A DNA stretch of 44,660 bases from Terriglobia bacterium (GTDB taxonomy: Bacteria; Acidobacteriota; Terriglobia; JAIQFV01): the NCBI GenBank assembly GCA_020072965.1, contig JAIQFY010000042.1:1-44660 (forward strand), in the 5' to 3' direction. Position numbers and translations under genes: made by a program. This document shows positions 19,561 to 40,737 of this stretch, piece by piece. The notes under the pieces are model-generated. The model was not told the DNA's origin and did not search any database. It saw only the letters and a list, made by a program, of their open reading frames with translations. Within the stretch, counting starts at the first letter, position 1; the number at the start of each line of letters is the position of its first letter.

Positions 19561-19670
19561 ATTCCACCAGCCCTACCCTGTACTCCCTCCTCGTCAACTC
19601 GAGTGAGCACTTTTGACCAAACGTGTGAGCAGTACTGGGCTGACTGGCAAATTACTCCGGCGTATTAATA
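19561..19670 (+). promoter_or_regulatory. Promoter element, copy A
   Basis: One of six copies of a shared upstream element. TGAGCA is at 19604 and again at 19626 (22 bp apart), -35 CTGACT at 19640-19645, and a degenerate -10 TATTAA at 19663-19668 (17-bp spacing). The upstream part TTCCACCAGCCCTACCCTGT also belongs to the element. It lies 155 bp before the first Gln-rich gene and has the weakest -10 of the six. Confidence 0.65.
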
Positions 19671-19822
19671 GTAGTACCCTGAGTCGTTAGGCAGGATCTG
19701 GTTTGAGCCGGCTGGCAGAATAAACAAGTGGTTGCGTCTCTCATCCTGCTTACAGGGATCCTCACGGCCTCTCTTGTGGGGCTACATCCAACATAGCGAC
19801 CGCATTTCTAAGGAGGTGTGCA

Positions 19823-20662
19823 GTGAATGTAAATATCTTGAACCGGATGGTGGTGGCGGCTGCAATCGGCGCGGTGTCGTTGGTGGGAATGAGCCTATCG
19901 ACCCACGCCCGGCAAGAACCCCAGCAAGAGCAACACCCGCAGCAAGACAAGAAAGAGCAAAAAAAGGAGCAACCGCCGGCGCAGAAACAAGAGAAGCAAG
20001 ACCAGAACAAGCAGCAGCAACAGCACGGTAAGCAGCAGGGCCAGAATAAACAGCAGCAAGAGAAGGCCCAGCAGCAAGACCAGAACAAGCAGCAGCAACA
20101 GCATGCCAAGCAACAGCAGCAAGACCAGAACAAGCAGCAGCAACAGCACGCCAAGCAACAGCAGCAGGACCAGAACAAACAGCAGCAACAGCATGCCAAG
20201 CAACAACAGCAGGACCAGAACAAGCAGCAACAACAGCACGCTCAGCAACAGCGTCAGCAGCAGGTCAACCAGCCCTCACAGCAAGGGCAACGTGTGCAGC
20301 AAGGCGAGCAACGGGTCGTGTGGCAGCAGCATCGCGCACAAAGCTGGCAGGCCGAACACCGCACCTGGCAGCAACGTGGCGGTTACAACGGCTACCGTAT
20401 TCCTGACGACCGGTTCCGTGGCTATTTTGGTCCGGGTCACGGGTTCCGCGTCCACAGCCTCCCTTTGATAGTTGTTGGCGGGTACCCCCGCTTTCAGTAC
20501 GGTGGGTATTGGTTCAGTCTCATTGACCCGTGGCCAGAATATTGGTCAGACAACTGGTACGACAACGACGATGTGTATATTGACTATTCCAATGGCGGAT
20601 ATTATCTGCACAACCGGAGGCATCCCGGCGTTGGAATTACAATCAGTGTCTTCCTGAACTAA
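19823..20662 (+). CDS. Secreted Gln/His/Lys-rich repeat protein
   Basis: A 279-residue protein with a GTG start 6 bp after AAGGAGG. A signal peptide (MVVAAAIGAVSLVGMSLSTHA, residues 9-29) precedes about 120 residues made of Gln, Lys, His and Asn. This includes near-exact 15-residue repeats of the form KQQQQDQNKQQQQHA. A folded C-terminal domain follows (RIPDDRFRGYFGPGHGFRV, PRFQYGGYWFSLIDPWPEYW, DYSNGGYYLHNRRHPGV), rich in Tyr, Trp and Gly. That domain looks like a conserved acidobacterial secreted domain I cannot name. The repeat is likely extended or coiled and could bind metal through His. Paralogous in its leader to the gene at 21099 and driven by the same promoter element. Confidence 0.75.
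   Translation: MNVNILNRMVVAAAIGAVSLVGMSLSTHARQEPQQEQHPQQDKKEQKKEQPPAQKQEKQDQNKQQQQHGKQQGQNKQQQEKAQQQDQNKQQQQHAKQQQQDQNKQQQQHAKQQQQDQNKQQQQHAKQQQQDQNKQQQQHAQQQRQQQVNQPSQQGQRVQQGEQRVVWQQHRAQSWQAEHRTWQQRGGYNGYRIPDDRFRGYFGPGHGFRVHSLPLIVVGGYPRFQYGGYWFSLIDPWPEYWSDNWYDNDDVYIDYSNGGYYLHNRRHPGVGITISVFLN
20064..20245 (+). repeat. 45-bp tandem coding repeats
   Basis: Within the Gln-rich gene, four near-identical 45-bp units (15 codons, ending CAGCATGCC or CAGCACGCC) follow one another. They differ at a few silent sites. The array keeps the frame and likely changes length by slippage. Confidence 0.8.
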
Positions 20663-20697
20663 GAGTTCATCGAGTACGATGCCATCGAAACTGCCCG

Positions 20698-20787
20698 GCG
20701 GTGACTACTACGAGACGAATCAATACGGCGCCACTTTGCTTCGGGCGGCCGTGAAATGCGGTTATCAGCAAGGCTTCCTGGCCGCGC
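20698..20787 (+). pseudogene. Relic copy of the 3' part of the second Gln-rich gene
   Basis: GACTACTACGAGACGAATCA and the next ~70 bp closely match 21996-22082 inside the downstream Gln-rich gene, coding YYETNQYGA and GYQQGFLA. No start or further coding sequence is attached. It shows that the tandem pair arose by duplication of a unit that once carried this C-terminal domain, followed by partial deletion. Confidence 0.75.
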
Positions 20788-20838
20788 CAATTTGCCTCCT
20801 GAGGATTGTCGCGGCCTGATCCCTCCTATTCGTCTGAA

Positions 20839-20946
20839 CTCCACCAGTTCCACCCTGTATTTCCCCCTCGCCAACTCGAGTGAGCACTTTTGACCAAACG
20901 TGTGAGCAGTACTGGGCTGACACGCAAATTACCCTGGGGTATAAGT
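20839..20946 (+). promoter_or_regulatory. Promoter element, copy B
   Basis: The best-preserved copy together with D. TGAGCA at 20881 and 20903, TGACCA between them at 20891, -35 CTGACA at 20917-20922, -10 TATAAG at 20940-20945, spacing 17 bp. It lies 154 bp before the second Gln-rich gene, leaving a long leader as in copy A. About 100 bp is nearly identical between A and B, so these two share a recent duplication. Confidence 0.75.
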
Positions 20947-21098
20947 ACTATATCCCGAGTCGCCAGTTCGGATCCGGTGCGAGCCGGATGGCACAAGAGA
21001 CAAGGGGTTACGATTCTCATCCTGTTAACTGGGGACCTCGCGGCCTCTCTTTCGGGGCTAGATCCCATATAGCGACCGCATTCCTAAGGAGGTGTGCA

Positions 21099-22331
21099 GT
21101 GAATGTCAATATCTTGAACCGGATGGTGGTGGTGGCTGCAATCGGCGTAGGGTCGTTAGTGGGAATGAGCCTACCGACCCACGGCCGGCAAGAACCGCAG
21201 CAAGAGCAACAGCCGAAGCAAGACCAGAAGCAGCAGGACAAAGAGAAAAAGAAACAGCAACCGGCGGCGAAGAAACAACCGCCGCAAGACCCAAATAAAC
21301 AAGCCCCGCAAGGCCAGAATAAACAGCAACAGCAGGACCAGAATAAACAGCAGCAACAACAGCGCGCCCAGGAACAACAGCGCGTCCAGCAACAGCAGGA
21401 CCTAAATAAGCAGCAACAACAGAAGGCCCAGCAGCAGCAACAGATTAACCAGCAGCAACAGCAGAACCAGAACAAACAGCAGCAACAGCAGCGCGCTCAG
21501 GAACAACAGCGCGTCCAGCAACAGAACGCCCAGCAGCAGGAACAGATCAAACAGCAGAACCAGAACAAACAGCAGCAACAGCAGCGCGCTCAGGAACAGC
21601 AGCGCGTCCAGCAACAGAACGCCCAGCAGCAGCAACAGCGCGCCCAGCAGCAACAATGGCAGCGGGACCAGGATTGGCAACAGCGCGTCCAGCAACAACG
21701 GCAACAAGACCAGGATCAGCAGCAAGCCCGTCTTTCACAAGAGCGTCAGCAGCAGCTTATTAGGGAGCAACAGCAGCGTCTGACGCAGTACAGTCAAAAT
21801 CTAGATCAGCGGCAGCGTGTCTGGCAGCAGCATGAAGCAGCGCTTCAGCAACAAAAACGCATGGCGCAGTACCGTTATCAGCAGGAGTATGTGGGGCACT
21901 TGCGTGAGCAGCACACGCGTCTCCTGAATGAGCGCCACGATTACAATAATGATCCATATTTCTACACGGCTTGGAACTATCGTTACAACCGTGGCGGCCG
22001 CTACTACGAGACGAATCAATACGGCGCCAATTTGCTTCGGGAGGCCGTGAACTACGGTTATGAGCAAGGCTTCCTGGCCGGACAGGCAGACCGGCAGGAT
22101 CGCTGGCGTTACAACTACCAAGACTCTTATGCCTATCAGGACGCGAACTACGGCTATGGTGGTTATTATGTGCCCCAGGGGGAATACAACTATTACTTTC
22201 GCCAGGGTTTCCGCCGCGGCTATGAGGATGGCTACTACAGCCGCTATCATTATGGTAGCTATTCGAGCGGCAAGTACACCATCCTTGGCGCCATTTTGGG
22301 GTCAATCCTCGACATGCAGTCGCTTCGTTAA
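21099..22331 (+). CDS. Secreted Gln-rich coiled protein with Tyr/Gly-rich domain
   Basis: A 410-residue protein with a GTG start behind AAGGAGG; the longer frame to 20880 crosses the promoter and is rejected. A signal peptide nearly identical to the neighbour's (ILNRMVVVAAIGVGSLVGMS) precedes ~230 residues dominated by Gln with Arg, Lys and Asn, repeating units like QQRAQEQQRVQQQ. This is likely a long helix or coiled coil. The C-terminal domain has NLLREAVNYGYEQGFLAGQA and YFRQGFRRGYEDGYYSRYHY, a duplicated G-Y-x-x-G-F/Y-x-x-G pattern. It ends in a hydrophobic segment (YTILGAILGSILDM) that could insert in a membrane. Envelope-associated stress protein by context; function unknown. Confidence 0.75.
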   Translation: MNVNILNRMVVVAAIGVGSLVGMSLPTHGRQEPQQEQQPKQDQKQQDKEKKKQQPAAKKQPPQDPNKQAPQGQNKQQQQDQNKQQQQQRAQEQQRVQQQQDLNKQQQQKAQQQQQINQQQQQNQNKQQQQQRAQEQQRVQQQNAQQQEQIKQQNQNKQQQQQRAQEQQRVQQQNAQQQQQRAQQQQWQRDQDWQQRVQQQRQQDQDQQQARLSQERQQQLIREQQQRLTQYSQNLDQRQRVWQQHEAALQQQKRMAQYRYQQEYVGHLREQHTRLLNERHDYNNDPYFYTAWNYRYNRGGRYYETNQYGANLLREAVNYGYEQGFLAGQADRQDRWRYNYQDSYAYQDANYGYGGYYVPQGEYNYYFRQGFRRGYEDGYYSRYHYGSYSSGKYTILGAILGSILDMQSLR

Positions 22332-22487
22332 AGACTGCGACGGTGGCGTCCAAAACAAGCGCCTGGCTCCTTTGACCGAGGAGAGTCAGTAGAGTCGGGC
22401 CGCACCCCGGTTGCGGGATGGGGGCCGCTGGTCACGTCCATGGAAAACGGACGTACTCTCAATTCCCGAGGAGCGGACCGATAGGCG

Positions 22488-22509
22488 CCTCCCTTCGAAG
22501 ATAGGGAGG
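22488..22509 (+). promoter_or_regulatory. Hairpin covering the ribosome site (broken Thivi_2564 gene)
   Basis: CCTCCC (22488-22493) can pair with GGGAGG (22504-22509), which is the ribosome site of the gene at 22520. The intact paralogue at 26230 has a matching hairpin with a 5-bp stem and a different loop. The stem is kept while the loop differs, which suggests translational control. Confidence 0.45.
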
Positions 22510-22519
22510 TCATTAGATC

Positions 22520-22711
22520 ATGCTTTTAATGTAAATTTTGGCGGCGTTGGTCGTGGTAAGTGTTCACCTCTGGCTCGTCAACAGCTTCATACCGATGGCG
22601 GGCTCTATTAACTCGATCTGGAACGCCGTTGTGGTCATCGCGGTAGTTTTGTGGCTCCTAAGAGTATTTGGATTGATGAATTCTCTCTCCAGGATCCACC
22701 TGGGAAGGTAA
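22520..22711 (+). pseudogene. Thivi_2564-type membrane protein gene with early stop
   Basis: The 64-codon frame aligns end to end with the intact paralogue at 26230 (LWLVNSFIPMAGSINSIWN; VLWLLRVFGLMNSLSRIHL). Its fifth codon is TAA, where the paralogue has AAT, caused by a small local rearrangement of TTAATTAATG. The rest has no stop and keeps hydrophobic character. Either it is a young pseudogene, or translation starts at TTG codon 7, although the ribosome site is placed for the ATG. Confidence 0.7.
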
Positions 22712-22721
22712 AGGAACTTAT

Positions 22722-24164: not shown

Positions 24165-24202
24165 CGCTCGCTCAAGCGCCAGCCGCAGTGCCAGCCCTCG
24201 TT

Positions 24203-24343
24203 GTGAGGACTGGGAAGCATCTCGCTCGTGTGCTGATTATCGTGCTCGAAAACCAGAATTACAGTTCGGCCATAAAAGACCCATTCCTGGCACAGCTAAC
24301 AGGGCCGAGGGCCAGCTCCAGCAAATTGGATGAGCAATTGTGA
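24203..24343 (+). pseudogene. Relic: N-terminal piece of a phosphoesterase
   Basis: The frame reads ARVLIIVLENQNYSSAIKDP and FLAQLTG before ending inside promoter element C. LIIVLENQNYS is the characteristic N-terminal strand of the phosphoesterase (acid phosphatase/phospholipase C, AcpA-like) family, whose members are over 250 residues long. Only about 30 residues remain. The break falls where element C begins. Confidence 0.6.
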
Positions 24344-24396
24344 CCAGACGCGTGAGCCATGCTGAACAGACAGGCGAATCAGCCCGGGGTATAAAG
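24318..24396 (+). promoter_or_regulatory. Promoter element, copy C (csbD)
   Basis: TGAGCA at 24331, TGACCA at 24341, TGAGCC at 24353, -35 CAGACA at 24367-24372 and -10 TATAAA at 24390-24395 (17-bp spacing). The spacing of all boxes equals the other copies. The far-upstream C-rich part is missing, replaced by the phosphoesterase relic. It lies 183 bp before csbD. Confidence 0.65.
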
Positions 24397-24577
24397 ATCA
24401 TAAACACAAAGGGCAGGGGACTCGCGAGAGTCTCCAACTGAGTAGAACCGATAGAAGGAATTTCTTGAGAGGGAGGTCAGGTGTTGCATCCTCCGCTCAA
24501 ACCAATAGATGTACGCACTTTCTCCGGTGGATCGCAGTGGGGCTGCGGCCTGGAATCCCGCCAAAGGAGCAACTGTG

Positions 24578-24757
24578 ATGAAGCCAAGCACCAAAGATAA
24601 AGCCAAAGGCAAGTTTCACGAATTGAGGGGCAAGGTCAAACAGAAAGCAGGACAACTGACGAACAATCCCGGTTTGGAAGCCGAGGGCACTGTTGAAAAG
24701 GCGGCCGGGAAGGCGCAAGGGATAATCGGCAAGGTGGAGAAAGCAGTCCAACAATAG
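24578..24757 (+). CDS. csbD: CsbD family stress protein
   Basis: A 59-residue, highly charged protein. ATG 24578 follows AAAGGAGC; the longer frame to 24509 lacks a start signal. The CsbD pattern is clear: KDKAKGKFHELRGKVKQKAG, then LEAEGTVEKAAGKAQGIIGK. CsbD proteins are abundant, largely helical or disordered small proteins induced by general stress (sigma-B-controlled in Bacillus); the molecular role is unknown. It is downstream of promoter copy C, tying that element to a known stress gene. The SYLF gene follows 85 bp later. Confidence 0.9.
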   Translation: MKPSTKDKAKGKFHELRGKVKQKAGQLTNNPGLEAEGTVEKAAGKAQGIIGKVEKAVQQ

Positions 24758-24842: not shown

Positions 24843-25526
24843 ATGAAAAGGCTTAGTCTGATTTTTCTGTTGCTGACTTTCTGTACAACGGCATTTGCCG
24901 GTGAGAGCCAACTGCAAAAGGCAACCAACGTTGTGAACGAGATCATGGGGACTCCCGACAAAGGCATTCCTGAAGAGTTGCTGGAAAAGGCCGTGTGTGT
25001 CGGCATCATTCCTTCGGAGGTGAAGGTTGCCCTGGGAGTCGGTGGTACTTATGGACGCGGCATGCTGGTGTGCCGCAGGGGCGGGAACGGTGTGTGGGGT
25101 GCGCCTTCCATGTTCACCCTCGGCGCCGCGAGCGTTGGATTTCAGATCGGCGGTAAGGCCACGGACATCGTCTTCGTCGTCATGAATCCCGACGGCGCAA
25201 GGAAGCTGGTCCAGGACAGCGTCAAGTTGGGTGCGGAAGCATCTGCCGCAGCGGGACCCGTAGGTCGCTCTGCGGAGGGCGCGACTGACGCTCAACTCCA
25301 CGCCGAGATTCTCAGCTACTCGCGCACCCAGGGTCTGTTTGCCGGGCTATCGCTCGACGGCGCCGTGGTAAAGCAAGATAGAGATGACAACGAGAAGCTC
25401 TATGGACGCAAGGTGAGCGCGAAAGAAATTCTGATCGATGGCACAGTGCGCACTCCTCCGGCGGCTCGGGGCTTGACCAACACGCTGACGAAATACTGTC
25501 CCAAGGGTGGACAAGCGTTCAAATGA
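24843..25526 (+). CDS. SYLF (Ysc84-like) domain protein, secreted
   Basis: A 227-residue protein from ATG 24843 behind AAAGGAGC. A signal peptide (LIFLLLTFCTTAFA, cut before GESQ) precedes a full SYLF domain: PEELLEKAVCVGIIPSEVK, GVGGTYGRGMLVCRRGG, WGAPSMFTLGAASVGFQIGG, ATDIVFVVMNPDGARKL and SYSRTQGLFAGLSLDGAVVK. SYLF domains bind phosphoinositides in eukaryotes; bacterial exported versions probably act on envelope lipids. It may share the csbD transcript, which would place it under promoter element C. Confidence 0.85.
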   Translation: MKRLSLIFLLLTFCTTAFAGESQLQKATNVVNEIMGTPDKGIPEELLEKAVCVGIIPSEVKVALGVGGTYGRGMLVCRRGGNGVWGAPSMFTLGAASVGFQIGGKATDIVFVVMNPDGARKLVQDSVKLGAEASAAAGPVGRSAEGATDAQLHAEILSYSRTQGLFAGLSLDGAVVKQDRDDNEKLYGRKVSAKEILIDGTVRTPPAARGLTNTLTKYCPKGGQAFK

Positions 25527-25931: not shown

Positions 25932-26201
25932 AGGCCCGGTACCTGGGCAACGATGACGAGAATCCCAAGGCAGACTCGAGGGAAAATGACTCCTGGCTTT
26001 GCCTGGTCGAACATGCCGCACTGTAAGACCGACCTGTGGATTTGACTCCAGGTCAATGCCATCCTTGCCAGTTCCCGACTGATCAGGCTGAACGCCCGGG
26101 ATTCCCGCTCGCTCTGGAGGACTCGACCTTGACTGCCCTCACAGAAAAGCAGCAGGCGATACTCATCAGTGCAAAACGGGGAGCCGACGCATAGGCGTCT
26201 G
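25932..26201. other. Leader region of the Thivi_2564 gene
   Basis: No gene is supported. Its last 40 bases (GACGCATAGGCGTCTGCCTCC) resemble the sequence before the broken paralogue (ACCGATAGGCGCCTCCC), so a conserved leader of at least 50 bp exists, ending in the hairpin at 26202. Confidence 0.35.
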
Positions 26202-26219
26202 CCTCCGAAAACAAGGAGG
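26202..26219 (+). promoter_or_regulatory. Hairpin covering the ribosome site (Thivi_2564 gene)
   Basis: CCTCC (26202-26206) pairs with GGAGG (26215-26219), the ribosome site, across the 8-base loop GAAAACAA. The ATG is 10 bases further on. The same arrangement occurs in the broken paralogue at 22488, with a 6-bp stem and a different loop. Confidence 0.45.
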
Positions 26220-26229
26220 TCAACAAATC

Positions 26230-26421
26230 ATGCCTTTAATTAATGTATTCGTGGTTCTGATCGTAGTGGGTGTTGCGCTCTGGCTGGTGAATCGCTTCAT
26301 ACCCATGGCAGGATCCATTAAGTCGATCTTGAATGTGGTCGTGGTCATTTTCGTGGTTTTGTGGCTCCTGAATATCTTTGGATTTCTCCATTCTCTCTCC
26401 CGGATGCACATGAGGTTATGA
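26230..26421 (+). CDS. Thivi_2564 family membrane protein
   Basis: A 63-residue protein with two helices: NVFVVLIVVGVALWLVNRFI, then PMAGSIKSILN, then VVVVIFVVLWLLNIFGFL. The W-L-V-N-R-F-I-P-M loop is what I associate with the Thivi_2564 group of small membrane proteins. Function unknown. A disrupted paralogue lies at 22520. The strong ribosome site can be hidden in a hairpin, so expression may be switched at translation. Confidence 0.8.
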   Translation: MPLINVFVVLIVVGVALWLVNRFIPMAGSIKSILNVVVVIFVVLWLLNIFGFLHSLSRMHMRL

Positions 26422-26580
26422 AGGAACCCAATTCGGAGATGGGGGGACCAGTCAGTGAGTTTGCCAAAGCACCTATAAGACTGATCGAGGCTCCTGGGCT
26501 TGGATTTCTCCAGTCAAGGAGCTTCCTTGTGTCTGCCCATCCTGAGATTGAACTCTAAGCTCTTCAGCGCGGAGGCAACC

Positions 26581-27397: not shown

Positions 27398-27547
27398 TCA
27401 GACCGTAGATCTTCGCCCAGTGAGCAGGTTCCACACCAACACAACCACTGCAACCACGAGCAATGTGTGGATGAGGCCCCCGCCAACGTGAAGTCCAAAG
27501 CCCAGCAGCCACAGAATCATCAGAATCACGAAAATGGTCCAAAGCAT
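27398..27547 (-). CDS. lmo0937 family small membrane protein
   Basis: A 49-residue protein too short for most gene callers. ATG 27547 follows GGGAGGAGG. It reads MLWTIFVILMILWLLGFGLH, then VGGGLIHTLLVVAVVVLVWN, then LLTGRRSTV. This matches the lmo0937 family (M-L-W-T-I at the start, G-G-x-I-H-x-L-L-V-V-A in the second helix, a basic end). Function unknown; the family is widespread and often near stress genes. It is the only gene of this neighbourhood on the minus strand and has its own copy of the shared promoter (D), 64 bp upstream. Confidence 0.85.
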   Translation of the reverse strand: MLWTIFVILMILWLLGFGLHVGGGLIHTLLVVAVVVLVWNLLTGRRSTV

Positions 27548-27609: not shown

Positions 27610-27720
27610 ACTTATACCCTTGGCGTAATACGCGTGTCAGCCCAGTACGGCTCACACGTCTGGTCATATTTGCTCATCCCGCGTAATGAAGGGAACTACA
27701 GGGGGTCGGTGAAATTTACG
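27610..27720 (-). promoter_or_regulatory. Promoter element, copy D (lmo0937)
   Basis: Read on the minus strand: TGAGCA at 27676-27671, TGACCA ten bases later, TGAGCC at 27654-27649, -35 CTGACA at 27640-27635 and -10 TATAAG at 27616-27611 (18-bp spacing). Upstream AATTTCACCGACCCCCTGTA resembles copy E. It faces the lmo0937 gene, so the element follows gene orientation, as a promoter should. Confidence 0.75.
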
Positions 27721-27880: not shown

Positions 27881-28537
27881 CTAGAACTGCACAATCTTAT
27901 TGCGAAGGGCATAGCGAATCAGGCCGCTCAAGGAATGCGTACCGAGCTTGCGCATGATGTTGCTTCGGTGGGTTTCTGCCGTGTGAACACTGAGCCCCAG
28001 GGTTACCCCGATCTCTTTATTACTCTTCCCTTCTGCCAGGAGCTGGACAACTTCCCGCTCGCGAGGGGTCAGCAAGTCACGATTGCGGTTCGTTCTGCCG
28101 GTTGACTGGCCCGTTTTCAGGTGGCTCTCCACCACGAGGGTGGCTACCTTGGATGAGAAAAAACCTTTGTGCCGGCTAAGCGCTGCCACGCCCTCCACCA
28201 GGCTTCGTCCTGCGTCGGACTTCAGGACGTACGCACGAGCGCCTGATTCGACCACCCTCCGTACTAACTGTTCGGACTCATGAAGGGTCAGGATAAGCAC
28301 CTCGGTTCTGGGGAGGGCTTTCAGGATTTGTCGAGTGGCTTCCAAGCCATTCAATTCCGGCATGCTGAGATCCATCACCACGACGTCAGGCTTCGTCTCT
28401 TTTGCCAGTTCAATAGCCTCCCGGCCATTGGCCGCCTCTGCACAAACTTCCCATCCGGGATGGACCTCCAGAAGTGCTCGCATTCCCTGCCGAACGACCT
28501 CGTGATCATCCGCCACCAGGATACGAAGCGGCTTCAT
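27881..28537 (-). CDS. NarL/FixJ-type response regulator
   Basis: A 218-residue regulator from ATG 28537; the longer frame upstream lies inside the kinase gene. The receiver domain has D10-D11, phospho-acceptor D56 (VVVMDLSMPELNG) and K106. A C-terminal LuxR-type helix-turn-helix holds LTPREREVVQLLAEGKSNKE and VHTAETHRSNIMRKLG. Its start codon overlaps the stop of the upstream HisKA_3 kinase (ATGA), so the two are translationally coupled and very likely partners. It would bind DNA as a phosphorylated dimer. Targets unknown; the nearest downstream promoter-bearing gene is lmo0937. Confidence 0.9.
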   Translation of the reverse strand: MKPLRILVADDHEVVRQGMRALLEVHPGWEVCAEAANGREAIELAKETKPDVVVMDLSMPELNGLEATRQILKALPRTEVLILTLHESEQLVRRVVESGARAYVLKSDAGRSLVEGVAALSRHKGFFSSKVATLVVESHLKTGQSTGRTNRNRDLLTPREREVVQLLAEGKSNKEIGVTLGLSVHTAETHRSNIMRKLGTHSLSGLIRYALRNKIVQF

Positions 28538-32255: not shown

Positions 32256-32361
32256 GGAGCGGAGAGTTTATTGTCCCGGGGAATATCCTGATCCTCTATG
32301 AAAAAGCGGTAATCTCCCTTGCAATCCTCGGCTCCTCTCCGGCAAGCAGAAGGGGGTTGTC

Positions 32362-33117
32362 ATGGCAAGCAAAAGAATTCCTATCGATGGACCCACCCTC
32401 AGCAAGATGGGGGATGCTGTTATGGCGCAAAACAAAAGCCGGCCTGGGGTTATTACGGCAAATCAGAAAAAACAGCCTGTCGATTGGGAAGCCCTCCTCG
32501 CTGGAATCAACGGGGGGAAGACCGTTCTAGAATACACCGCGAACCGCGTCATCTACCGGCAAGGAGACCCTGCGGATTCCATCTTCTACCTCCGGCGAGG
32601 CAAGGTGAAGCTCGCGGTTACTTCCCAACAGGGCAAGGAAGCGATCGTCGCCATTTTGGGTCCCGGTGAGTTCTTCGGCGAGGGATGCCTGGCAGGCCAA
32701 CTGTTGCGCGTTTCAACGGCTACTGCAATGACCGATTGCTCCTTTGCCAGGATTGAGAGGCCGCGGATGGCGCGCATGCTCCACGAGCAGCACGACATTT
32801 CGGAATTGTTCGTCACGCACCTGCTTTCACGCAACATCCGATATGAAGAGGATCTCGTCGACCAGCTTTTCAACTCCAGTGAGAAACGCCTGGCCCGGAT
32901 TCTCTTGCTGCTGGCTCATTTTGGCAAGGAAGGTCGATCCGAAACGGTCGTTCCCAGAGTCAACCAGGAGAACTTGGCGCAAATGGTGGGCACTACCCGG
33001 TCGCGGGTCAGTCATTTCATGAACAAGTTCAGGGACCTTGGCTTTGTCGATTACGACGGTCCCACCGGCGGGTTGATGGTCCATAGTGGACTGCTCAGCG
33101 TGATCCTGCACGACTAG
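32362..33117 (+). CDS. Crp/Fnr family transcription regulator, paralogue 1
   Basis: A 251-residue regulator starting at ATG 32362 behind AGAAGGGGG. A ~35-residue N-terminal extension not found in paralogue 2 precedes the cyclic-nucleotide-type barrel (IYRQGDPADSIFYLRRGKVK, GEFFGEGCLAGQ). A dimer helix (SSEKRLARILLLLAHFGK) and a winged helix with QENLAQMVGTTRSRVSHFMN follow. No four-Cys cluster of FNR type is present, so it is unlikely to be an oxygen sensor of that sort. The effector is unknown. It and the next gene share the same recognition helix, so they should bind the same sites. Confidence 0.9.
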   Translation: MASKRIPIDGPTLSKMGDAVMAQNKSRPGVITANQKKQPVDWEALLAGINGGKTVLEYTANRVIYRQGDPADSIFYLRRGKVKLAVTSQQGKEAIVAILGPGEFFGEGCLAGQLLRVSTATAMTDCSFARIERPRMARMLHEQHDISELFVTHLLSRNIRYEEDLVDQLFNSSEKRLARILLLLAHFGKEGRSETVVPRVNQENLAQMVGTTRSRVSHFMNKFRDLGFVDYDGPTGGLMVHSGLLSVILHD

Positions 33118-33163
33118 CCTTGTGTAACCCAAGTTTGAGTCAAATCGTAGTTAATCTGAAGAA

Positions 33164-33192: not shown

Positions 33193-33302
33193 CCCTCGGG
33201 AAGAGAGTTCACTGTGCTAGGGAATATCCTGATCGTCGATGACAAATCGGCAATCTACCCCGCGACGCTCGGCCCCTCACCAGCAAACAGAAGGAGTTTG
33301 TA

Positions 33303-33962
33303 ATGGCAAGTAAGAAACAGGACCCTGTCGATTGGGAAGCCTTCCTCGCTGGTTTTTCCCGCGGCAAGACCGACATAGAGTACCACGAGGGCCGTAAAAT
33401 CTTTCGTCAGGGGGATCCTGCGGATTCCGTGTTTTATATCCGACGAGGCAAGGTGAAGCTCTCGGTGACATCCCAACAGGGCAAGGAAGCGATCGTCGCC
33501 ATTTTGGACGCCAATGAGTTCTTCGGCGAGGGATGTCTCGCAGGTCAGCCATTGCGCATCTCAACGGCTGTCGCGAGGACGGATTGCGCTCTTTCCCGGA
33601 TTGAGAAGCCGCTGATGGCACGCGTACTGCACGAACGGCACGGGATCTCGGAATTGTTCGTCGTGCATCTACTTTCACGCAACATTCGATTCGAAGGAGA
33701 TCTCGTCGACCAGCTTTTCAACTCCAGCGAGAAGCGTCTGGCCCGGATTCTCTTGCTGCTGGCTAATTTTGGCAAGGAGAGCCGGACCGAAATTGTGCAT
33801 CCGCGAATCAATCAGGAACACCTGGCACAAATGGTCGGCACCACGCGATCGCGGGTCAGTCATTTCATGAACAAGTTCAGGACGCTTGGGTTTGTCGAAT
33901 ACACTGGCGATGGTGGGTTAACGGTTAACAGCGGCCTCCTCAGCGTGGTCCTGCACGACTAG
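33303..33962 (+). CDS. Crp/Fnr family transcription regulator, paralogue 2
   Basis: A 219-residue regulator behind AGAAGGAG, closely similar to the preceding gene along its whole length, minus the N-terminal extension. Shared blocks include DPADSVFYIRRGKVKLSVTS, FFGEGCLAGQPLRISTA and TTRSRVSHFMNKFRTLGFVE. Differences gather in the sensor part (DANEFFGEG against GPGEFFGEG; SRTEIVHPRIN against RSETVVPRVN). The pair arose by tandem duplication including the leader. Different sensor parts with equal DNA-binding helices suggest two inputs for one set of targets. Neither shows FNR cysteines. Confidence 0.9.
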   Translation: MASKKQDPVDWEAFLAGFSRGKTDIEYHEGRKIFRQGDPADSVFYIRRGKVKLSVTSQQGKEAIVAILDANEFFGEGCLAGQPLRISTAVARTDCALSRIEKPLMARVLHERHGISELFVVHLLSRNIRFEGDLVDQLFNSSEKRLARILLLLANFGKESRTEIVHPRINQEHLAQMVGTTRSRVSHFMNKFRTLGFVEYTGDGGLTVNSGLLSVVLHD

Positions 33963-34153: not shown

Positions 34154-34266
34154 GTAATTTCCACCGGCCCCAAACTGCAGTTTCCCCTCATCAGCTGGGA
34201 TGAGCAATTCTGGCCAGAGGCGTGAGCAGGATTGACCTGACCCCGAATTACCCCCAAGGTATAAGA
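34154..34266 (+). promoter_or_regulatory. Promoter element, copy E
   Basis: TGAGCA at 34201 and 34223, -35 CTGACC at 34237-34242, -10 TATAAG at 34260-34265, spacing 17 bp. The far-upstream part GGTAATTTCCACCGGCCCC matches copy D. It lies 59 bp before a truncated gene whose better-preserved relative follows copy F, so promoter and gene were copied together. Confidence 0.7.
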
Positions 34267-34323: not shown

Positions 34324-34428
34324 ATGTTCGCACGAGCGGTTTCCATCAAGGTGAAACTTGATTGTGATGCGGAACTTACCAGGATTTTCGAGCAGGAGGT
34401 GATCCCGCGGGTGTGCCGCGCGTGCTGA
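34324..34428 (+). pseudogene. Truncated monooxygenase-like gene (ABM type)
   Basis: The frame reads MFARAVSIKVKLDCDAELTR then IFEQEVIPRV and ends eight codons later. The N-terminus matches the gene after promoter F (LARAALINVKPGCDTKLTGT, LEHEVLP) and resembles a small acidobacterial protein of antibiotic-biosynthesis-monooxygenase (dimeric alpha-beta barrel) type, usually about 100 residues. After about 30 codons the sequence switches to a manA fragment. Not functional as it stands, though still behind an intact-looking promoter. Confidence 0.6.
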
Positions 34429-34661: not shown

Positions 34662-35438
34662 GTGAAAAAGCTAATTGTTTTTGATCTGGACGGCACACTT
34701 GCCGAAAGTAAGTCGTCTCTCGATGCCGAAATGTCGGCACTGCTGCATGACCTTCTCGGTGTCGTCAAAGTGGCCGTGATTTCCGGAGGCGATTGGCCAC
34801 AGTTTGAAAAACAAATGCTCTCCAATCTTCCCCATGACGAACGCCTGACGAATCTATCCCTCCTTCCTACATGTGGAACAAAGTTCTTTCAATACTCAGG
34901 GGATTGGAAAAAGATCTATTCAGAAGATTTCACCGCGGATGAAAAAGAGAAAATCATCAGGTCTCTAAAGAAGGCGCTCGGAGTAGCGGGCTTCAAGGTC
35001 GAAAAGGTCTGGGGAGAGGTAATAGAAGACCGGGGAAGCCAGATAACATTTTCCGCATTAGGTCAGCAGGCCCCCTTAGAAGAAAAGAACAAATGGGACT
35101 CCGATTTCACCAAGCGGAAGAAGATCAAAGCGATCCTTGACACTTTTATTCCCGAGTTTTCTGTCCGAATGGGTGGCGCGACATCCATTGATGTCACCAA
35201 ACTTGGCATTGACAAAGCCTACGGAATCAGAAAGTTGCGAGACCTCCTGGGCATTTCATTGAAAGAGATGATTTTCATAGGGGATGCCCTGTTCGTGGGA
35301 GGGAACGACTATCCAGCTGAAGAAGCAGGTGTTGTTTCTATCCCCGTTCGAGGTCCCAATGAGACTAAACCGGTTACCGAGGCAATCATCGCTTGTTTAG
35401 ATCGTGATCAGCAGGCGTGGACTTGTGAGAGGATTTGA
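34662..35438 (+). CDS. HAD-IIB family phosphatase
   Basis: A 258-residue hydrolase. I chose GTG 34662 because GGGGGAAGGA lies just before it and the Rossmann strand starts at once: LIVFDLDGTLAESKS with nucleophile D8 and acid D10. Motif II is the Ser in VAVISGGDW. The cap (about 85-185) has the alpha-beta pattern of the C2B type. Motif IV is MIFIGDALFVGGNDYPAEEAG, where the D-x-x-x-x-D of sucrose-phosphatase and phosphomannomutase relatives is recognisable. The substrate is probably a sugar phosphate. It precedes zwf and follows a manA relic, consistent with a carbohydrate island. Confidence 0.8.
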   Translation: MKKLIVFDLDGTLAESKSSLDAEMSALLHDLLGVVKVAVISGGDWPQFEKQMLSNLPHDERLTNLSLLPTCGTKFFQYSGDWKKIYSEDFTADEKEKIIRSLKKALGVAGFKVEKVWGEVIEDRGSQITFSALGQQAPLEEKNKWDSDFTKRKKIKAILDTFIPEFSVRMGGATSIDVTKLGIDKAYGIRKLRDLLGISLKEMIFIGDALFVGGNDYPAEEAGVVSIPVRGPNETKPVTEAIIACLDRDQQAWTCERI

Positions 35439-35465
35439 TGAGTGGATTTAAGTTGCAGCGCCTAG

Positions 35466-35588
35466 CTGCCCGCCAATCTCAACCAGGCCCAACGGGATTA
35501 CTTCGGCGCGCACACCCTTGGGGGGATCGATGCAAGGGCACGTTTCGCATGGAATGGGAGAAGGCGTGAGCATCACGAAAAGGAGTGA
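35466..35588 (+). pseudogene. gnd: Relic: C-terminus of 6-phosphogluconate dehydrogenase
   Basis: The frame LPANLNQAQRDYFGAHT is the highly conserved end of decarboxylating 6-phosphogluconate dehydrogenase (normally followed by YERxD...FFHTNWTG). Here it degrades into LGGIDARARFAWNGRR and runs into the start of zwf in another frame. The preceding ~450 residues are gone. gnd and zwf are successive steps of the oxidative pentose-phosphate route and often adjacent, so this is a broken gnd-zwf operon. Confidence 0.65.
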
Positions 35589-37110
35589 CCAACTCGAACC
35601 GACTGTGTTCATCATTTTTGGCGGAGCTGGTGACTTGACCTGGCGGAAACTCGTGCCGGCCTTGTTTGACCTCTCCCACGACCGAAGTATGCCCGCCCAT
35701 TTTTCGGTTATCGCGGTGGATCGCGTTGACTTGAGCGACGAAAAGTTGTGCCGGCGTCTCCACGACGGCGTTAAAAAGTTCTCGCGCCAGGGAATGGTGA
35801 AAACCGGCGAATGGGGCGAGTTTGCCGGCCATATCCGCTACCAGCAGGGCGATTTCAAGAAGCTGCAAACTTATGCGGCCCTGGCCGAACAATGCGCGAA
35901 GCTGGAAAAGGAATGGGGCGCCAAAGTCCACCGCATCTTTTACATGGCTACACCGCCGAGCATGTTCGGCCAAATTCCAAAATACCTCGGCAAGGCCGGA
36001 CTGGCGCGTGACCGGCAATGGACGCGGATTGTGGTCGAGAAACCGATCGGCTATGACCTGGAATCCGCCCGCGCCCTGAATGCCATCCTCGCCGCCAATT
36101 TCGAAGAATCTCAAATCTTCCGCATCGACCACTATCTGGGCAAGGAAACGGTGCAGAACATTCTGGCGTTCCGCTTTGCCAATCCCCTCTTTGAGCCGCT
36201 CTGGAACCGGCGTTATGTGGATTACGTGACTATCACCGCTGTCGAAGCTGTCGGTGTCGAACATCGCGGCGGCTATTACGACCACGCGGGAGCGCTGCGC
36301 GACATGGTGCAGAATCACCTCATGCAACTCCTTTGTCTCGTCGCGATGGAACCGATGGTCTCCTTCGAGGCCGATGAGATTCGCAACAAGAAAGTAGACG
36401 TCCTCCACGCCGTTCGTCCGATTCACGCTGACGCCGTCCATCATTGCGTGGTGCGCGGGCAATACGGCCAGGGTTGGGTCGGCGGCAAGAAAGCGCCTGG
36501 TTACCGCGAAGAAGACGGCGTATCGCCTGATTCCCAGACCGAGACATTTGTGGCGTTAAAGCTGTTCCTTGACAATTGGCGCTGGCAGGACGTGCCTTTC
36601 TACCTTCGGACCGGAAAGCGGCTCGCCCGGCAGACCTCCGAAATTGCCATCCAGTTCCGCGGCGTCCCGCATCAGTCGTTTCCGCCCGAGTCGGGCCGCG
36701 ATTGGCATCCATCTCGGCTCGTCCTGTCGATCCAACCAGAGGAAGGAATCGTGCTGGGATTTCAGGCCAAATATCCGGGGCCAAAGATGCTGTTGCGGAC
36801 GGTGGACTTACGGTTCAATTATCGTGAGAGCTTTGCCGCACCATCTCCCAATGCGTATGAGACGTTGCTCTGGGACGTAATGAAGAACGACGCCACGTTG
36901 TTCATGCGCGCCGACCAAGTCGAAGCGGCCTGGCGGTTGTTGATGCCGGTGCTCGACGTCTGGGCGGTAGCTCCGCCCAGTGACTTCCCCAATTACGCCG
37001 CCGGCACCTGGGGACCCGAGGATACTCAGGGGCTGCTGGCTCACGGACACAGCTGGCCCGAGCCGACCGAACTGGTGGGACAGCGTAAGAAAAAGGGAAA
37101 GAATTCGTGA
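35566..37110 (+). CDS. zwf: Glucose-6-phosphate 1-dehydrogenase
   Basis: A 514-residue enzyme making 6-phosphoglucono-lactone and NADPH in the cytoplasm. The nucleotide motif is FIIFGGAGDLTWRKLVPALF, and the active-site signature RIDHYLGKETVQNILAFRFA is complete. GTG 35566 is preferred: GGGAG lies 5 bp upstream, and the longer in-frame part (to 35518) overlaps the gnd relic and looks derived from it. ATG 35530 and 35554 remain possible. The enzyme appears intact while its usual partner gnd is broken upstream and a glucokinase is broken downstream. Product could still feed the Entner-Doudoroff route if those genes exist elsewhere. Confidence 0.93.
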   Translation: MSITKRSDQLEPTVFIIFGGAGDLTWRKLVPALFDLSHDRSMPAHFSVIAVDRVDLSDEKLCRRLHDGVKKFSRQGMVKTGEWGEFAGHIRYQQGDFKKLQTYAALAEQCAKLEKEWGAKVHRIFYMATPPSMFGQIPKYLGKAGLARDRQWTRIVVEKPIGYDLESARALNAILAANFEESQIFRIDHYLGKETVQNILAFRFANPLFEPLWNRRYVDYVTITAVEAVGVEHRGGYYDHAGALRDMVQNHLMQLLCLVAMEPMVSFEADEIRNKKVDVLHAVRPIHADAVHHCVVRGQYGQGWVGGKKAPGYREEDGVSPDSQTETFVALKLFLDNWRWQDVPFYLRTGKRLARQTSEIAIQFRGVPHQSFPPESGRDWHPSRLVLSIQPEEGIVLGFQAKYPGPKMLLRTVDLRFNYRESFAAPSPNAYETLLWDVMKNDATLFMRADQVEAAWRLLMPVLDVWAVAPPSDFPNYAAGTWGPEDTQGLLAHGHSWPEPTELVGQRKKKGKNS

Positions 37111-37137
37111 TTGACACAATCTGAAATATCCTCTGCC

Positions 37138-37323
37138 ATGATAATTCCAGGCATCAAGATTGGCGGCACCCACGTGAAAGTGCGGGAGGGAGGCAATGCC
37201 AGACTGCTCAAGAAACTTCCGCCCGGCCCGCGCCGGGGAAACAATTCCAACGCATTCCAAAGCGGACATCGCCTTTGGACCAAGCTTTACAGCGGCTCAA
37301 CTCATAAGCGGTTCGTCCATTGA
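37138..37323 (+). pseudogene. Relic: N-terminus of a ROK/polyphosphate glucokinase
   Basis: The frame starts MIIPGIKIGGTHVKV, matching the phosphate-binding strand of polyphosphate glucokinases (typically LVIDIGGTHVKVLATG). KKLPPGPRRG follows where the family has x-F-x-S-G-P. After about 30 residues similarity ends and the frame continues as unrelated sequence to 37323. The family is about 240-260 residues. It lies between zwf and a HAD gene, where a glucose-phosphorylating enzyme would fit. Confidence 0.55.
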
Positions 37324-37326
37324 CTC

Positions 37327-38049
37327 ATGAAAAGAAAAACTACCAAACGTTCGGTTCCCCCCAAAATCGTTTTTCTGTTCGACGTGGACAACACGTTGCT
37401 CGACAATGACCAGGTCATCGCCGACCTCAGCAAATATCTCAAGCGCGAGGTCGGGCCCGAGCGGGCGCGGTGTTACTGGACCATTTTCGAGCAGTTGCGA
37501 GCCCGGCTGGGTTATGCCGATTACTTGGGTGCCTTGCAGCGTTACCGAAGCGAGTATCCACATGACCTGGGTCTGCTGGCCATTTCACGTTTCCTCATAA
37601 ACTATCCCTTTGCCAACCGCCTCTTCCCCAACTCACTTGACGTTATCGAGCGCGTCAAGCAATGGGGAGCAGCCGTCCTTCTGACTGACGGCGACGTCGT
37701 TTTCCAACCCCGCAAAGTGGACCGCTCCGGACTTTATGAAGCGGTCGATGGGCGCGCGTTGATTTACGTGCATAAAGAGCACGAGTTGGCCGACGTGGAA
37801 GCGCAGTATCCAGCGGATCATTATGTCATCGTGGACGACAAGCTGCGCATTCTCGCTGCCATCAAGAAAATCTGGGGCCGGCGGGTGACGACCGCCTTCG
37901 TGCGGCAGGGGCACTACGCGCTGGATCCAAAAATTCTGGCCACCTACCCGGCCGCTGACGTGAGCATCGAGCGGATCGGCGCTTTGTTGAACTACGGCCG
38001 GCAAGACTTTGTTCCGCGGACTGCCCAGGTTGCCCGCGGAAACGTATGA
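37327..38049 (+). CDS. HAD family hydrolase
   Basis: A 240-residue HAD protein. Motif I is FLFDVDNTLLDND with D19 and D21; motif II is LLTDGD (residues 118-123); motif III/IV is HYVIVDDKLRILAAIKKIWG. The helical region after motif I (about 30-95) is a C1-type cap. Asn replaces the usual Gly after the second Asp (DVDNT), a common variant in phosphoglycolate-like phosphatases. Substrate unknown. It is 9 bp upstream of the GH15 gene, so the two are probably co-transcribed with zwf. Confidence 0.8.
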   Translation: MKRKTTKRSVPPKIVFLFDVDNTLLDNDQVIADLSKYLKREVGPERARCYWTIFEQLRARLGYADYLGALQRYRSEYPHDLGLLAISRFLINYPFANRLFPNSLDVIERVKQWGAAVLLTDGDVVFQPRKVDRSGLYEAVDGRALIYVHKEHELADVEAQYPADHYVIVDDKLRILAAIKKIWGRRVTTAFVRQGHYALDPKILATYPAADVSIERIGALLNYGRQDFVPRTAQVARGNV

Positions 38050-38058
38050 CATCCTGAT

Positions 38059-40467
38059 ATGAATCCAACTGCACACTCCGCCGCATTCGGCGCGCCCGGA
38101 ATCGAACCGCGTTGGACGTCCAGTGCCAAAGAAGGTCTCGGTACCGCCTATCATACCAGCTGCCGGCTCTGGTTCACCCTCAGCCACGGCATCGTCAACG
38201 AAATCTACTACCCGACTGTCGACCAACCGAGCACTCGCGATTTTCAGTTCCTGATCAGCGATGGTAAAACATTTTGCCACGAGGAAAAGCGCGACCTGAA
38301 TCACCGGATCGAATACCCGGAACGGGATTGTGTCTTCTACCGCCTCATCAACTCAGAACCCAACGGGCGCTACCGGCTGATCAAGCATATCCTCGCCGAT
38401 CCGCACCGGTCGGTACTGCTTGTGCACACCAGAGTCGAAGTGCTCGACGAGTCGCTGCGTGGCAAGTTGCGTCTCTACGCACTGCTGGCTCCGCACCTTG
38501 CGCGTCATGGCGCGGGCAACTCCGGTTGGTGTTCTGAAATCGGCGGTAACAACCTGCTCCATGCCGAACGCAAGGGTGTGCACCTGGTCATGGGATGTAG
38601 CCGCGGATTTTCGCGGCGATCCATCGGATATGTCGGCGCCAGCGACGGTTGGCAGGATTTGATGAACAATTTCAGGATGGACTGGGAATTCCGCGCAGCC
38701 GGGCATGGCAACATTGCGCTGACTGGCGAAATCGATCTTCAGGGCGGCGATGAGTTTGCGATCGCAATTGCGCTCGGGAGGAGCTGCCAGAGCACAGTGG
38801 CGAAGTTGCTGCAATCGCTGGCGGAGCCGTTCGAGGTTCATCGCGAAGCCTATGTCCGCCAGTGGCAGCGCACGCTGGTCAATCCGAAGTATGATTTCAG
38901 CCAGCACACACTCGACGGCGGTCACATGTACCGGCTGAGCCGATGTGTCCTGCTCGCCCACGAAGACAAATCGTTTCAAGGCGCGCTGGTGGCGTCAATG
39001 AGCATCCCTTGGGGCGAGACAAAGGGCGATAATGATCTGGGCGGTTATCATCTCGTCTGGACACGCGACCTGGTGCAGAGCGCAACCGCACTTCTGGCCA
39101 CCGGCCAGACCGGGACTCCCCTGCGCGCTCTGATCTGGCTCGCCGCCATTCAGCGGACGGATGGCAGGTTCCCGCAAAATAGCTGGATCAATGGAAATGC
39201 GTATTGGTCGGGTGTGCAACTCGATGAAATTGCCGCTCCCATCCTGCTGGCCTGGCGTTTGCATCGCGAAGGCGTCACGCTGGGCCGATTCGATCCGTGG
39301 GTCATCATTTTGCGTGCCGCGGCCTATCTCATTCGGCAGGGACCAGTAACCGCACAGGAACGCTGGGAGGAGAACGCCGGTTATTCTCCCTCGACGCTCG
39401 CCATGGTGATCGCCGGCCTGGTTTGTGCCGCGGAGTTTGCCAAACAGGGCAATGAAACGGGCACGGCGGATTTTATTTTGCAGTATGCGGACTGGTTGGC
39501 GGCGCACGTTGAAGAATGGACCGTCACCACCACCGGTGAATTGGTCGAAGGGTTCCGGCGCCATTATATTCGTATCAATCCCACTGATCCTGAGGTGCCC
39601 GATCCGCACGCCGACCCGAACACAACGATGCTCACCGTCGCCAACGGCGGCGGCCTCCATCCGGCAAGGAATGTTGTCGGCGGCGATTTTCTTCACCTGG
39701 TGCGGTTGGGCATCCGTGCAGCGGACGATCCCCTCGTGCGGGATTCGATCGCGGTCATCGATCGCTTGCTCAAGCTCGATCTGCCGCAAGGTCCGGGCTG
39801 GCGCCGCTACAATCATGATGGCTATGGGCAGAAAGAGGACGGCGGCGCGTTCGACGGCACGGGCGTCGGCCGCTCCTGGCCGATTTTGACGGGCGAGCGC
39901 GGCCATTACGAGCTGGCGGCCGGGCACGATCCAAAGCCGTTTATTGCCACGATGGAAAAGTTCGCCAACGAAGGTGGCATGATCAGCGAGCAGTTGTGGG
40001 ACTCCGAAGACCTGCCGGAGAAGGGAATGAGCCGTGGGCTGCCCACGGGTGCGGCCATGCCGCTGTGCTGGTCACATGCGGAATATGTCTCCCTCGTGCG
40101 CAGTGCTCATGACGGCATCTGTTTTGATCGAGTCGAGCCGGCCTTCCAGCGTTATGTCGTCAACCCGGTGGCGAGCCGACATGAAATCTGGACCTTCCGC
40201 CACCCGCTTCGCCGAATGCCTCATGGCAAAATCCTGCGCCTCATCGCTGCGGCAGAGGCAACCATCGTCTGGTCCGCCAATGACTGGGCAAGCACCAACA
40301 AAGCGGACGCCACTCATATCAGCGCACTCAATTTGTGGTTCGCCGATCTTCCAACGGAGAACTGCGCCGGCGGTTCGGCAATCGAGTTCACCTTTTTCTG
40401 GAAAGAAGCTCAGCGCTGGGAAGGCAGGAATTATTCAGTCGCTGTCAGCGGGCCAAAGCGATGGTGA
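38059..40467 (+). CDS. Glycoside hydrolase family 15 (glucoamylase-like)
   Basis: An 802-residue enzyme with no signal peptide, so cytoplasmic. An N-terminal beta-sandwich domain (about 1-275; SCRLWFTLSHGIVNEIYYPT, YALLAPHLARHG) precedes the (alpha/alpha)6 barrel. Catalytic features are the general acid in ERWEENAGYSPST (E437/E438) and the general base E644 in MISEQLWDSE. GDNDLGGYHLVWTRDLVQ (323-340) forms substrate sites as in bacterial glucoamylases. It would release beta-glucose from the ends of alpha-glucans, such as internal glycogen or maltodextrin. Glucose would then need phosphorylation, but the neighbouring glucokinase is a relic, so another kinase must do it if the route to zwf operates. 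Confidence 0.9.
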   Translation: MNPTAHSAAFGAPGIEPRWTSSAKEGLGTAYHTSCRLWFTLSHGIVNEIYYPTVDQPSTRDFQFLISDGKTFCHEEKRDLNHRIEYPERDCVFYRLINSEPNGRYRLIKHILADPHRSVLLVHTRVEVLDESLRGKLRLYALLAPHLARHGAGNSGWCSEIGGNNLLHAERKGVHLVMGCSRGFSRRSIGYVGASDGWQDLMNNFRMDWEFRAAGHGNIALTGEIDLQGGDEFAIAIALGRSCQSTVAKLLQSLAEPFEVHREAYVRQWQRTLVNPKYDFSQHTLDGGHMYRLSRCVLLAHEDKSFQGALVASMSIPWGETKGDNDLGGYHLVWTRDLVQSATALLATGQTGTPLRALIWLAAIQRTDGRFPQNSWINGNAYWSGVQLDEIAAPILLAWRLHREGVTLGRFDPWVIILRAAAYLIRQGPVTAQERWEENAGYSPSTLAMVIAGLVCAAEFAKQGNETGTADFILQYADWLAAHVEEWTVTTTGELVEGFRRHYIRINPTDPEVPDPHADPNTTMLTVANGGGLHPARNVVGGDFLHLVRLGIRAADDPLVRDSIAVIDRLLKLDLPQGPGWRRYNHDGYGQKEDGGAFDGTGVGRSWPILTGERGHYELAAGHDPKPFIATMEKFANEGGMISEQLWDSEDLPEKGMSRGLPTGAAMPLCWSHAEYVSLVRSAHDGICFDRVEPAFQRYVVNPVASRHEIWTFRHPLRRMPHGKILRLIAAAEATIVWSANDWASTNKADATHISALNLWFADLPTENCAGGSAIEFTFFWKEAQRWEGRNYSVAVSGPKRW

Positions 40468-40641
40468 GCCGGCAATGCGGAAATCTATCAAAAATGAGCA
40501 CGCCTGGAATCAATGCTAAGACCCCGGGTCCCGGAGGAAGAAAAGAACCACGACCGGAACCTTCGCCAACTGCACTGACGATTGGGCATTCCACACGGAC
40601 GGCTAGGAGTGGATTCTGGCTCCCCCACCAGCTCGTGCCCC

Positions 40642-40737
40642 CCACCTGGAACCTCCCCTCATAGACTGGCGTGAGCAACTTTGAACAACCGCATGAGCAG
40701 GACTGAACTGACATGCGAATCACCCCCGGGGTATAAG
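40642..40737 (+). promoter_or_regulatory. Promoter element, copy F
   Basis: TGAGCA at 40672 and 40694, -35 CTGACA at 40708-40713, -10 TATAAG at 40732-40737, spacing 18 bp. The upstream CCACCTGGAACCTCCCCTCA matches the C-rich part of copies B and E. It lies 65 bp before a monooxygenase-like gene. Confidence 0.75.

Follow-up and report, generated by a model that had tools for sequence, protein, structure and literature searches.

The contig JAIQFY010000042.1 (C71) of a Terriglobia bacterium of the Acidobacteriota (assembly GCA_020072965.1) was analysed over its entire length of 44,660 nucleotides, called the window hereafter, and was found to carry six copies of a promoter-like element, A to F, as well as two genes for regulators of the Crp/Fnr family, crp1 and crp2. 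The elements were read directly and aligned, with offset 0 set at the T of the first TGAGCA, and six copies with one common geometry were confirmed:

19604-19668, plus strand: element A, sites at 19604-19619 and 19626-19641, -35 at 19640-19645, -10 TATTAA at 19663-19668
20881-20945, plus strand: element B, sites at 20881-20896 and 20903-20918, -35 at 20917-20922, -10 TATAAG at 20940-20945
24331-24395, plus strand: element C, sites at 24331-24346 and 24353-24368, -35 at 24367-24372, -10 TATAAA at 24390-24395
27611-27676, minus strand: element D, sites at 27676-27661 and 27654-27639, -35 at 27640-27635, -10 TATAAG at 27616-27611
34201-34265, plus strand: element E, sites at 34201-34216 and 34223-34238, -35 at 34237-34242, -10 TATAAG at 34260-34265
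40672-40737, plus strand: element F, sites at 40672-40687 and 40694-40709, -35 at 40708-40713, -10 TATAAG at 40732-40737

Six copies had been announced by an earlier reading of the DNA (the original prediction); they are present, but the positions given there were rough block starts, 13-66 bp off, while the first TGAGCA starts at 19604, 20881, 24331, 27676 (minus strand), 34201 and 40672. A further half-site, TGAGCA or TGAGCC, is found at +22 in all six elements, followed by a -35-like hexamer at +36 (CTGACA in B, D and F, CTGACT in A, CAGACA in C, CTGACC in E) and by a -10 hexamer starting at +59 or +60 (TATAAG in B, D, E and F, TATAAA in C, TATTAA in A), the spacer being 17 bp in A, B, C and E and 18 bp in D and F. 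The predicted distances of 22 bp between repeats, 14 bp to the -35 and 17 or 18 bp to the -10 were thus found in every copy. The half-site at +10, expected as TGACCA in most copies, reads so in A to D, with TGGCCA in E and TGAACA in F. The three half-sites originally recognised are real but the count was incomplete, as a fourth had been missed, whose TG at +32 is invariant in 6/6. Overall, the element reads TGAGCA-N4-TGACCA-N6-TGAGCA-N4-TGRAC, then a -35 CTGACA, 17 or 18 bp, and a -10 TATAAG.

Within its own genome the element is confined to the window. A 34-bp pattern, allowed up to three mismatches over 5,917,101 bases (5.9 Mb), gave six matches, all inside the window, and the reversed pattern used as a control gave none in the whole genome. 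A sequence model built from the six, R1, finds only these six in the genome at expectation values (E) up to 10. Scored with a matrix made from 92 elements outside the genus of the window, the six reach 45-66 bits, all other positions of the window stay at 15 bits or below, and the best of 100 mononucleotide shuffles reached 1.5.

The distribution of the element in Acidobacteriota is patchy but broad. Among the own genome and 60 relatives, pattern matches with at most three mismatches were observed in 15/61 genomes, clustered as six in the own genome, eight in G001 of the same genus (seven of them on one contig), nine in G002 of the same family, six in G016 and three in G013; the remaining ten genomes hold one lone three-mismatch match each, compared with six single control matches in the whole set, and the loci around three of these lone matches (L051-L053) gave no match to the sequence model. 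A wide search of an 84,980-species genome collection with an exact pattern omitting the -10 box returned 44 stretches, 39 of them titled Acidobacteria, Acidobacteriota or Terriglobia, and the same pattern had no match in a viral collection of 2.9 million contigs. At E 1e-4, model R1 located elements in 18/299 genomes of the class and in 11/396 of a phylum sample, from 1 to 14 per genome, under stricter filters that lose weak matches. Further copies in related genomes, which the original prediction had proposed to look for, are therefore found in the relatives as well as in both samples. Matches in a Streptomyces (L086) and a Pseudomonas (L090) locus, scoring 16-19 bits and having no -10, were treated as chance. 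In L062:3302-5348, on a contig labelled Methylococcaceae, two divergent elements overlap, and an ActD/YflT-like gene and an incomplete Crp relative are also present, which points to either transfer or misbinning.

From all genomes, 114 distinct elements were collected, identical ones being dropped. L086 and L090 are included in this count and in those of 63 and 109 elements below, and are excluded from the information content, covariation, matrix, open reading frame (ORF) clustering and +22 count; the duplicate loci L061, L064, L068, L101 and L103 were also dropped from the last two. A recognisable -10, with at least five of the six letters of TATAAG, is present in 83/114 elements, at a spacer of 17 bp in 62 and of 18 bp in 17. 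The test was made non-circular with 63 elements fitting a pattern that omits the -10, among which 44 have the box at 17 or 18 bp (40/58 outside the window) versus 36/7683 control positions, so that -10 boxes are over-represented at this position also in elements retrieved without regard to them. Core positions carry close to 2 bits of information; beyond -20 the content mostly stays under about 0.4 bits (105 elements with at least 20/23 anchor letters), and it likewise falls after about +13 downstream of the -10 (74 elements); the boxes are indeed conserved while other bases drift, as had been noted. Across 99 places, the second 16-bp site stands exactly at +22 from the first in 88, at -22 in three and elsewhere in two, with none in six, a count that overstates the rigidity somewhat, since many loci were fetched with a pattern holding both sites. 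ORFs of 180 aa or longer cover the greater part of only 28/114 elements, whereas 72% of positions drawn at random from these loci fall inside such ORFs.

The genes following the elements in the window are these:

19823-20662, plus strand: Gln-rich secreted-looking protein, putative target of A, from a family of 14 downstream of elements
21099-22331, plus strand: Gln-rich secreted-looking protein of the Gln-rich family, putative target of B
24578-24757, plus strand: CsbD-like gene (PF05532), first recognised gene after C
24843-25526, plus strand: Ysc84/SYLF-domain protein, probably in the same operon as csbD
27398-27547, minus strand: lmo0937-family/DUF5670 membrane protein, putative target of D
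34324-34428, plus strand: short ORF after E, by eye resembling the ORF after F in truncated form
34662-40467, plus strand: HAD/PMM-like, glucose-6-phosphate dehydrogenase, HAD and GH15 genes downstream of E, a possible operon
40802-41143, plus strand: ORF following F, with 150-aa relatives behind elements in L071 and L072
41321-44240, plus strand: 231-aa protein, small protein, VWA-domain protein and sortase, a set also near elements in other genomes

The claim that known stress families (csbD, lmo0937) and two Gln-rich genes follow the elements is borne out by domain matches and by families recurring downstream. An ORF, picked by a home-made score and not by a gene caller, was chosen for 109/114 elements, and 62 of them fall into 11 families of at least three, one member of each being domain-scanned. 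These comprise the Gln-rich (14), lmo0937/DUF5670 (8), Ysc84/SYLF (6), OmpA-domain-containing (5) and Crp-containing (5) families, the 231-aa type before VWA-sortase (4), receiver-like proteins (4), the F-type ORF (3) and BON (3), a family of six whose scanned member scores above the Pfam cut-off for ActD and below that for YflT, and a family of four scoring slightly below the RcnB cut-off; YtxH (2) and Cpn10 (1) also occur downstream. On the mirror-image 5' side, which served as the control, only 18/111 ORFs fall into families of at least three, and 15 of the 18 form one family, read as an antisense ORF of crp. In place of copies scattered equally inside genes and in all orientations, mostly intergenic copies were seen with recurrent families on their 3' side and same strand. 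The families downstream appear largely stress-type, and the interpretation as a stress regulon is supported, none of the contrary outcomes that could be examined having occurred.

Traces of duplication and decay were observed among these genes. The 88 nt at 20697-20784, after the first Gln-rich gene, are 91% identical to 21993-22080 within the second and represent a remnant of the tandem duplication. A stretch for a small membrane protein is present twice, at 22467-22717 and 26177-26427, with 73% identity; the latter copy encodes a 63-aa Thivi_2564-family protein, and the former, with an early stop, looks decayed. The ORFs at 34324-34428 and 40802-41143 seem truncated or diverged relative to their 150-aa relatives in L071 and L072, with elements E and F intact.

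The original prediction had postulated an activator but put no name to it. Three regulator genes in the window come into question as its source:

32362-33117, plus strand: crp1, Crp/Fnr-family regulator with a cNMP-binding domain and HTH_Crp_2 (Pfam), candidate activator also by co-location
33303-33962, plus strand: crp2, Crp/Fnr-family regulator, 77% identical to crp1, candidate activator
27881-28537, minus strand: NarL-type response regulator, rejected as general activator

Element E begins 239 bp past the crp2 stop codon. The N-terminal, cyclic-nucleotide-binding-type domain PF00027 scores 79.9 bits in crp1 and 73.2 bits in crp2 (cut-off 27.5), and the C-terminal HTH_Crp_2 domain PF13545 scores 40.9 bits in crp2 (cut-off 27). 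A structure was predicted with moderate confidence (pLDDT, the predicted local distance difference test, 72.7; pTM, the predicted template modelling score, 0.56), and all 50 PDB matches listed by Foldseek are CRP/CAP, GlxR, NtcA, Vfr or Clr, the best at E 9e-15. The fits are loose, with template modelling scores (TM) of about 0.44-0.55 and root-mean-square deviations of 11-15.5, perhaps due to a differing domain orientation. By its domains, nearest solved chains and predicted fold, the candidate protein is a member of the Crp/Fnr superfamily; no named NCBIfam Crp/Fnr equivalog cut-off was reached, the best being NtcA (57.3 of 245 bits) and CRP (55.9 of 266). With regard to cAMP binding, the aligned Crp proteins mostly carry GE...R-x-[S/A/G]-[T/S] at the place of the R-S of E. 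coli Crp.

The candidate is further supported by its co-occurrence with the elements. In element loci, the Crp cluster is the most widespread ORF cluster, present in 17/23 genomes against 10/23 for the next (a crp-antisense cluster equals the 17). Homologs of crp2 at E 1e-30 occur in 114/299 class genomes, and among the matches listed 16 reach at least 68% identity. Elements are present in 14/16 class genomes with such an ortholog versus 4/283 others (Fisher p 9e-19). In the phylum sample all nine genomes with such an ortholog, the own one among them, have elements; leaving out the own genome, the comparison is 8/8 versus 2/387 others (p 3e-15), with other genomes shared by the two samples retained in it. 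G159, one of the four class exceptions, has a 73%-identical Crp fragment beside its element on the same contig. In a tree of 61 Crps, the element-linked proteins separate into two groups. The larger is a clade with support 100/96 whose 30 members comprise 28 element-linked Crps and two without elements; the other is a small clade of three. The label element-linked includes L133 and L135-L138, whose fetched DNA holds no element but whose genomes do. A residue of the recognition helix, aligned by eye to R185 of E. coli Crp, is His in 27/29 Crp rows sharing a locus with elements and in 7/7 further orthologs fetched, versus Phe in 24/28 paralogs sampled outside the islands. In 18/29 rows an element lies within 400 bp 3' of crp on the same strand; the 29 rows represent 28 genes, as L098 and L134 hold the same one. 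Because orthologs of at least 68% identity track the elements, and the NarL-type regulator reaches this identity in only three genomes (G000, G001 and G103) among the matches listed, crp1 and crp2 are most likely the activator genes, as far as sequence can tell.

Two observations concern the control of crp itself. The regions upstream of crp1 and crp2 (32262-32372 and 33203-33313) are 111 nt long and 78% identical and hold no element, so both genes seem to have another promoter in this genome. A second, divergent Crp clade occurs in islands (L076:4967-5695, L067:5520-6224 and L093:2122-2739), with an element upstream of the gene (L076) or of a preceding receiver gene (L067, L093) and another 59 bp after it, which is a possible cascade.

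Based on these findings a model is proposed, which we consider probable as a whole, that each element is a sigma70-type promoter (-35 cTGACA, 17 or 18 bp, -10 TATAAG) to which a composite activator site is coupled at a fixed distance. The composite would consist of TGAGCA-N4-TGACCA and TGAGCA-N4-TGRAC(T/A), each 16 bp long and offset by 22 bp, the second extending into the -35, and the island-encoded Crp/Fnr regulator, here crp1 or crp2, would bind both as dimers. The Crp site has a 5-6-5 layout of 16 bp. With the first -35 base counted as -35 and the start site assumed from the -10, the second site by geometry alone overlaps the -35 and is centred near -41.5, the class II position; class II Crp sites are usually centred at -41.5 according to PMC2859248. 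Since both the site length and this centre agree with Crp, two dimers are postulated, of which the downstream one, at about -41.5 with a 17-bp spacer or -42.5 with an 18-bp spacer, would contact RNA polymerase in a class II-like manner, assisted by the upstream one at about -63.5. The fourth half-site being TGRAC(T/A) and not TGACCA is as expected if the -35 TGACA constrains the sequence. In this way a clustered stress regulon would be co-induced, comprising CsbD, lmo0937/DUF5670, SYLF, BON, YtxH, ActD/YflT-like, RcnB-like, Gln-rich and VWA-sortase proteins, and in some genomes a crp gene itself. The anatomy, the conservation, the genome-wide specificity, the target families and the phylogenetic association with this Crp clade are seen directly in the sequences; Crp binding, activation, the start sites and the stress signal are inferred.

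Several points weigh against the model. The left half of each site, TGAGCA, is unlike the right half, TGACCA or TGRAC, which is less than ideal for a symmetric homodimer: the consensus shows dyad complementarity in 5/8 pairs of site 1 and 5/8 of site 2, with a sixth pair (22/37) in 19/105 elements. A direct-repeat reading, in which all four half-sites share TGAnC, fits equally well, and a covariation test of dyad versus direct repeat gave no signal in the element set, favouring neither. Elements also occur without a close ortholog in G073 (best relative 29% identical), G081 (44%), G147 (47%) and G475 (27%), with one or two matches each. No Crp relative was found at E 1e-10 in G529, which has one or two matches, or at E 1e-20 in G300, a gammaproteobacterial metagenome-assembled genome (MAG) with four matches (L203, L204), and G299, with one strong match, the last two lying outside the phylum labels. 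Conversely, orthologs reaching 68% identity occur without an element match in G087 and, save for a weak one of 22.7 bits, in G099, and G003 has a 66% ortholog and no element. Several of these genomes are incomplete MAGs, and this may account for part of the mismatches. Moreover, the 68% limit was chosen after the class sample had been seen, co-location of crp and element taken alone could reflect island inheritance, and Crp binding and expression control are predicted from DNA. Because of the strict left/right difference of the half-sites, a variant was considered in which the two Crp paralogs bind as a heterodimer, or Crp binds head-to-tail, on asymmetric sites locked 22 bp apart, a dedicated Crp clade thereby running the general stress response of scattered Acidobacteriota lineages from a composite promoter that would be obligate; we regard it as doubtful and know of no Crp-family member with such an arrangement.

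It was also considered that an unlinked or unrecognised factor reads the elements, with the crp genes as mere passengers of the islands or perhaps targets, as the few genomes lacking a close ortholog would suggest and as crp itself lies downstream of elements in L073, L102, L076 and, less clearly, L063. Such a factor is improbable, as it is one particular Crp clade, marked by the His in its recognition helix, that is associated with the elements, other island families reach at most 10/23 genomes, and site length and position match Crp. Binding of a response regulator head-to-tail on direct repeats, either to an OmpR/PhoB-like tandem box or by the NarL-type protein, would agree with the shared TGAnC, with the NarL-type regulator and two kinases adjoining element D, and with receiver-domain ORFs downstream of four elements. 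It is nonetheless quite improbable: the half-sites stand at 0/10/22/32, a spacing of 10/12/10 bp and not the uniform 11 bp of PhoB boxes, on which ground an OmpR/PhoB box was rejected; the NarL-type regulator, in its three genomes versus 18 element-bearing ones, is too rare for a general activator; and no DNA-binding response regulator was recognised among the 30 most widespread ORF clusters, as far as these were annotated. A mobile repeat, or a recently duplicated one, with no regulatory role is a very improbable explanation of the copies, even though A and B sit in a real tandem duplication of promoter and Gln-rich gene, because information content is near background outside the boxes and none occurs elsewhere in the own genome, and a transposable repeat in particular was ruled out by the intergenic placement, box-limited conservation and same-strand downstream families (62/109 versus 18/111).

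For Acidobacteriota, which are abundant in soils and have little regulatory genetics, the proposed Crp-dependent composite promoter would define a stress regulon by its DNA signature, its candidate regulator and its list of targets. Functions by association are offered for small unknown proteins such as lmo0937, the Gln-rich proteins and the VWA-sortase set, and a Crp specificity is proposed, with a TGAGCA half-site and a His in the recognition helix. Searches of the open-access PMC literature turned up no account of either the element or this regulator.

Compared with known systems, the element resembles the class II Crp promoters of Escherichia coli in its 16-bp site over the -35 near -41.5 and its sigma70-type -35 and -10. 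The E. coli Crp half-site is TGTGA, whereas TGAGCA is used here, and a second site is fixed 22 bp upstream at -63.5. Class I Crp sites are usually at -61.5, again according to PMC2859248. The candidate shares with GlxR of Corynebacterium glutamicum and with Mycobacterium tuberculosis CRP, its nearest solved relatives, the two-domain Crp architecture, aligned from about residue 15 to 210, and both are also among its Foldseek matches, but it is only 25-28% identical to them, and its recognition helix differs from that of GlxR (TRSRVSHF versus SRETVNKA in the alignment). The tandem 22-bp arrangement of half-sites adjoining the promoter is reminiscent of the Pho boxes of PhoB, yet Pho boxes are uniform 11-bp repeats, whereas here the spacing alternates as 10/12/10, the -35 is kept and no linked OmpR-type regulator was recognised. 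The regulons of SigB in Bacillus and RpoS in Escherichia typically hold CsbD, YtxH, YflT-like and BON/OsmY-type genes, and CsbD, YtxH, YflT-like and BON-type genes are among the members here as well; the common signal, however, appears to be an activator-type site with sigma70-like boxes instead of an alternative-sigma promoter.

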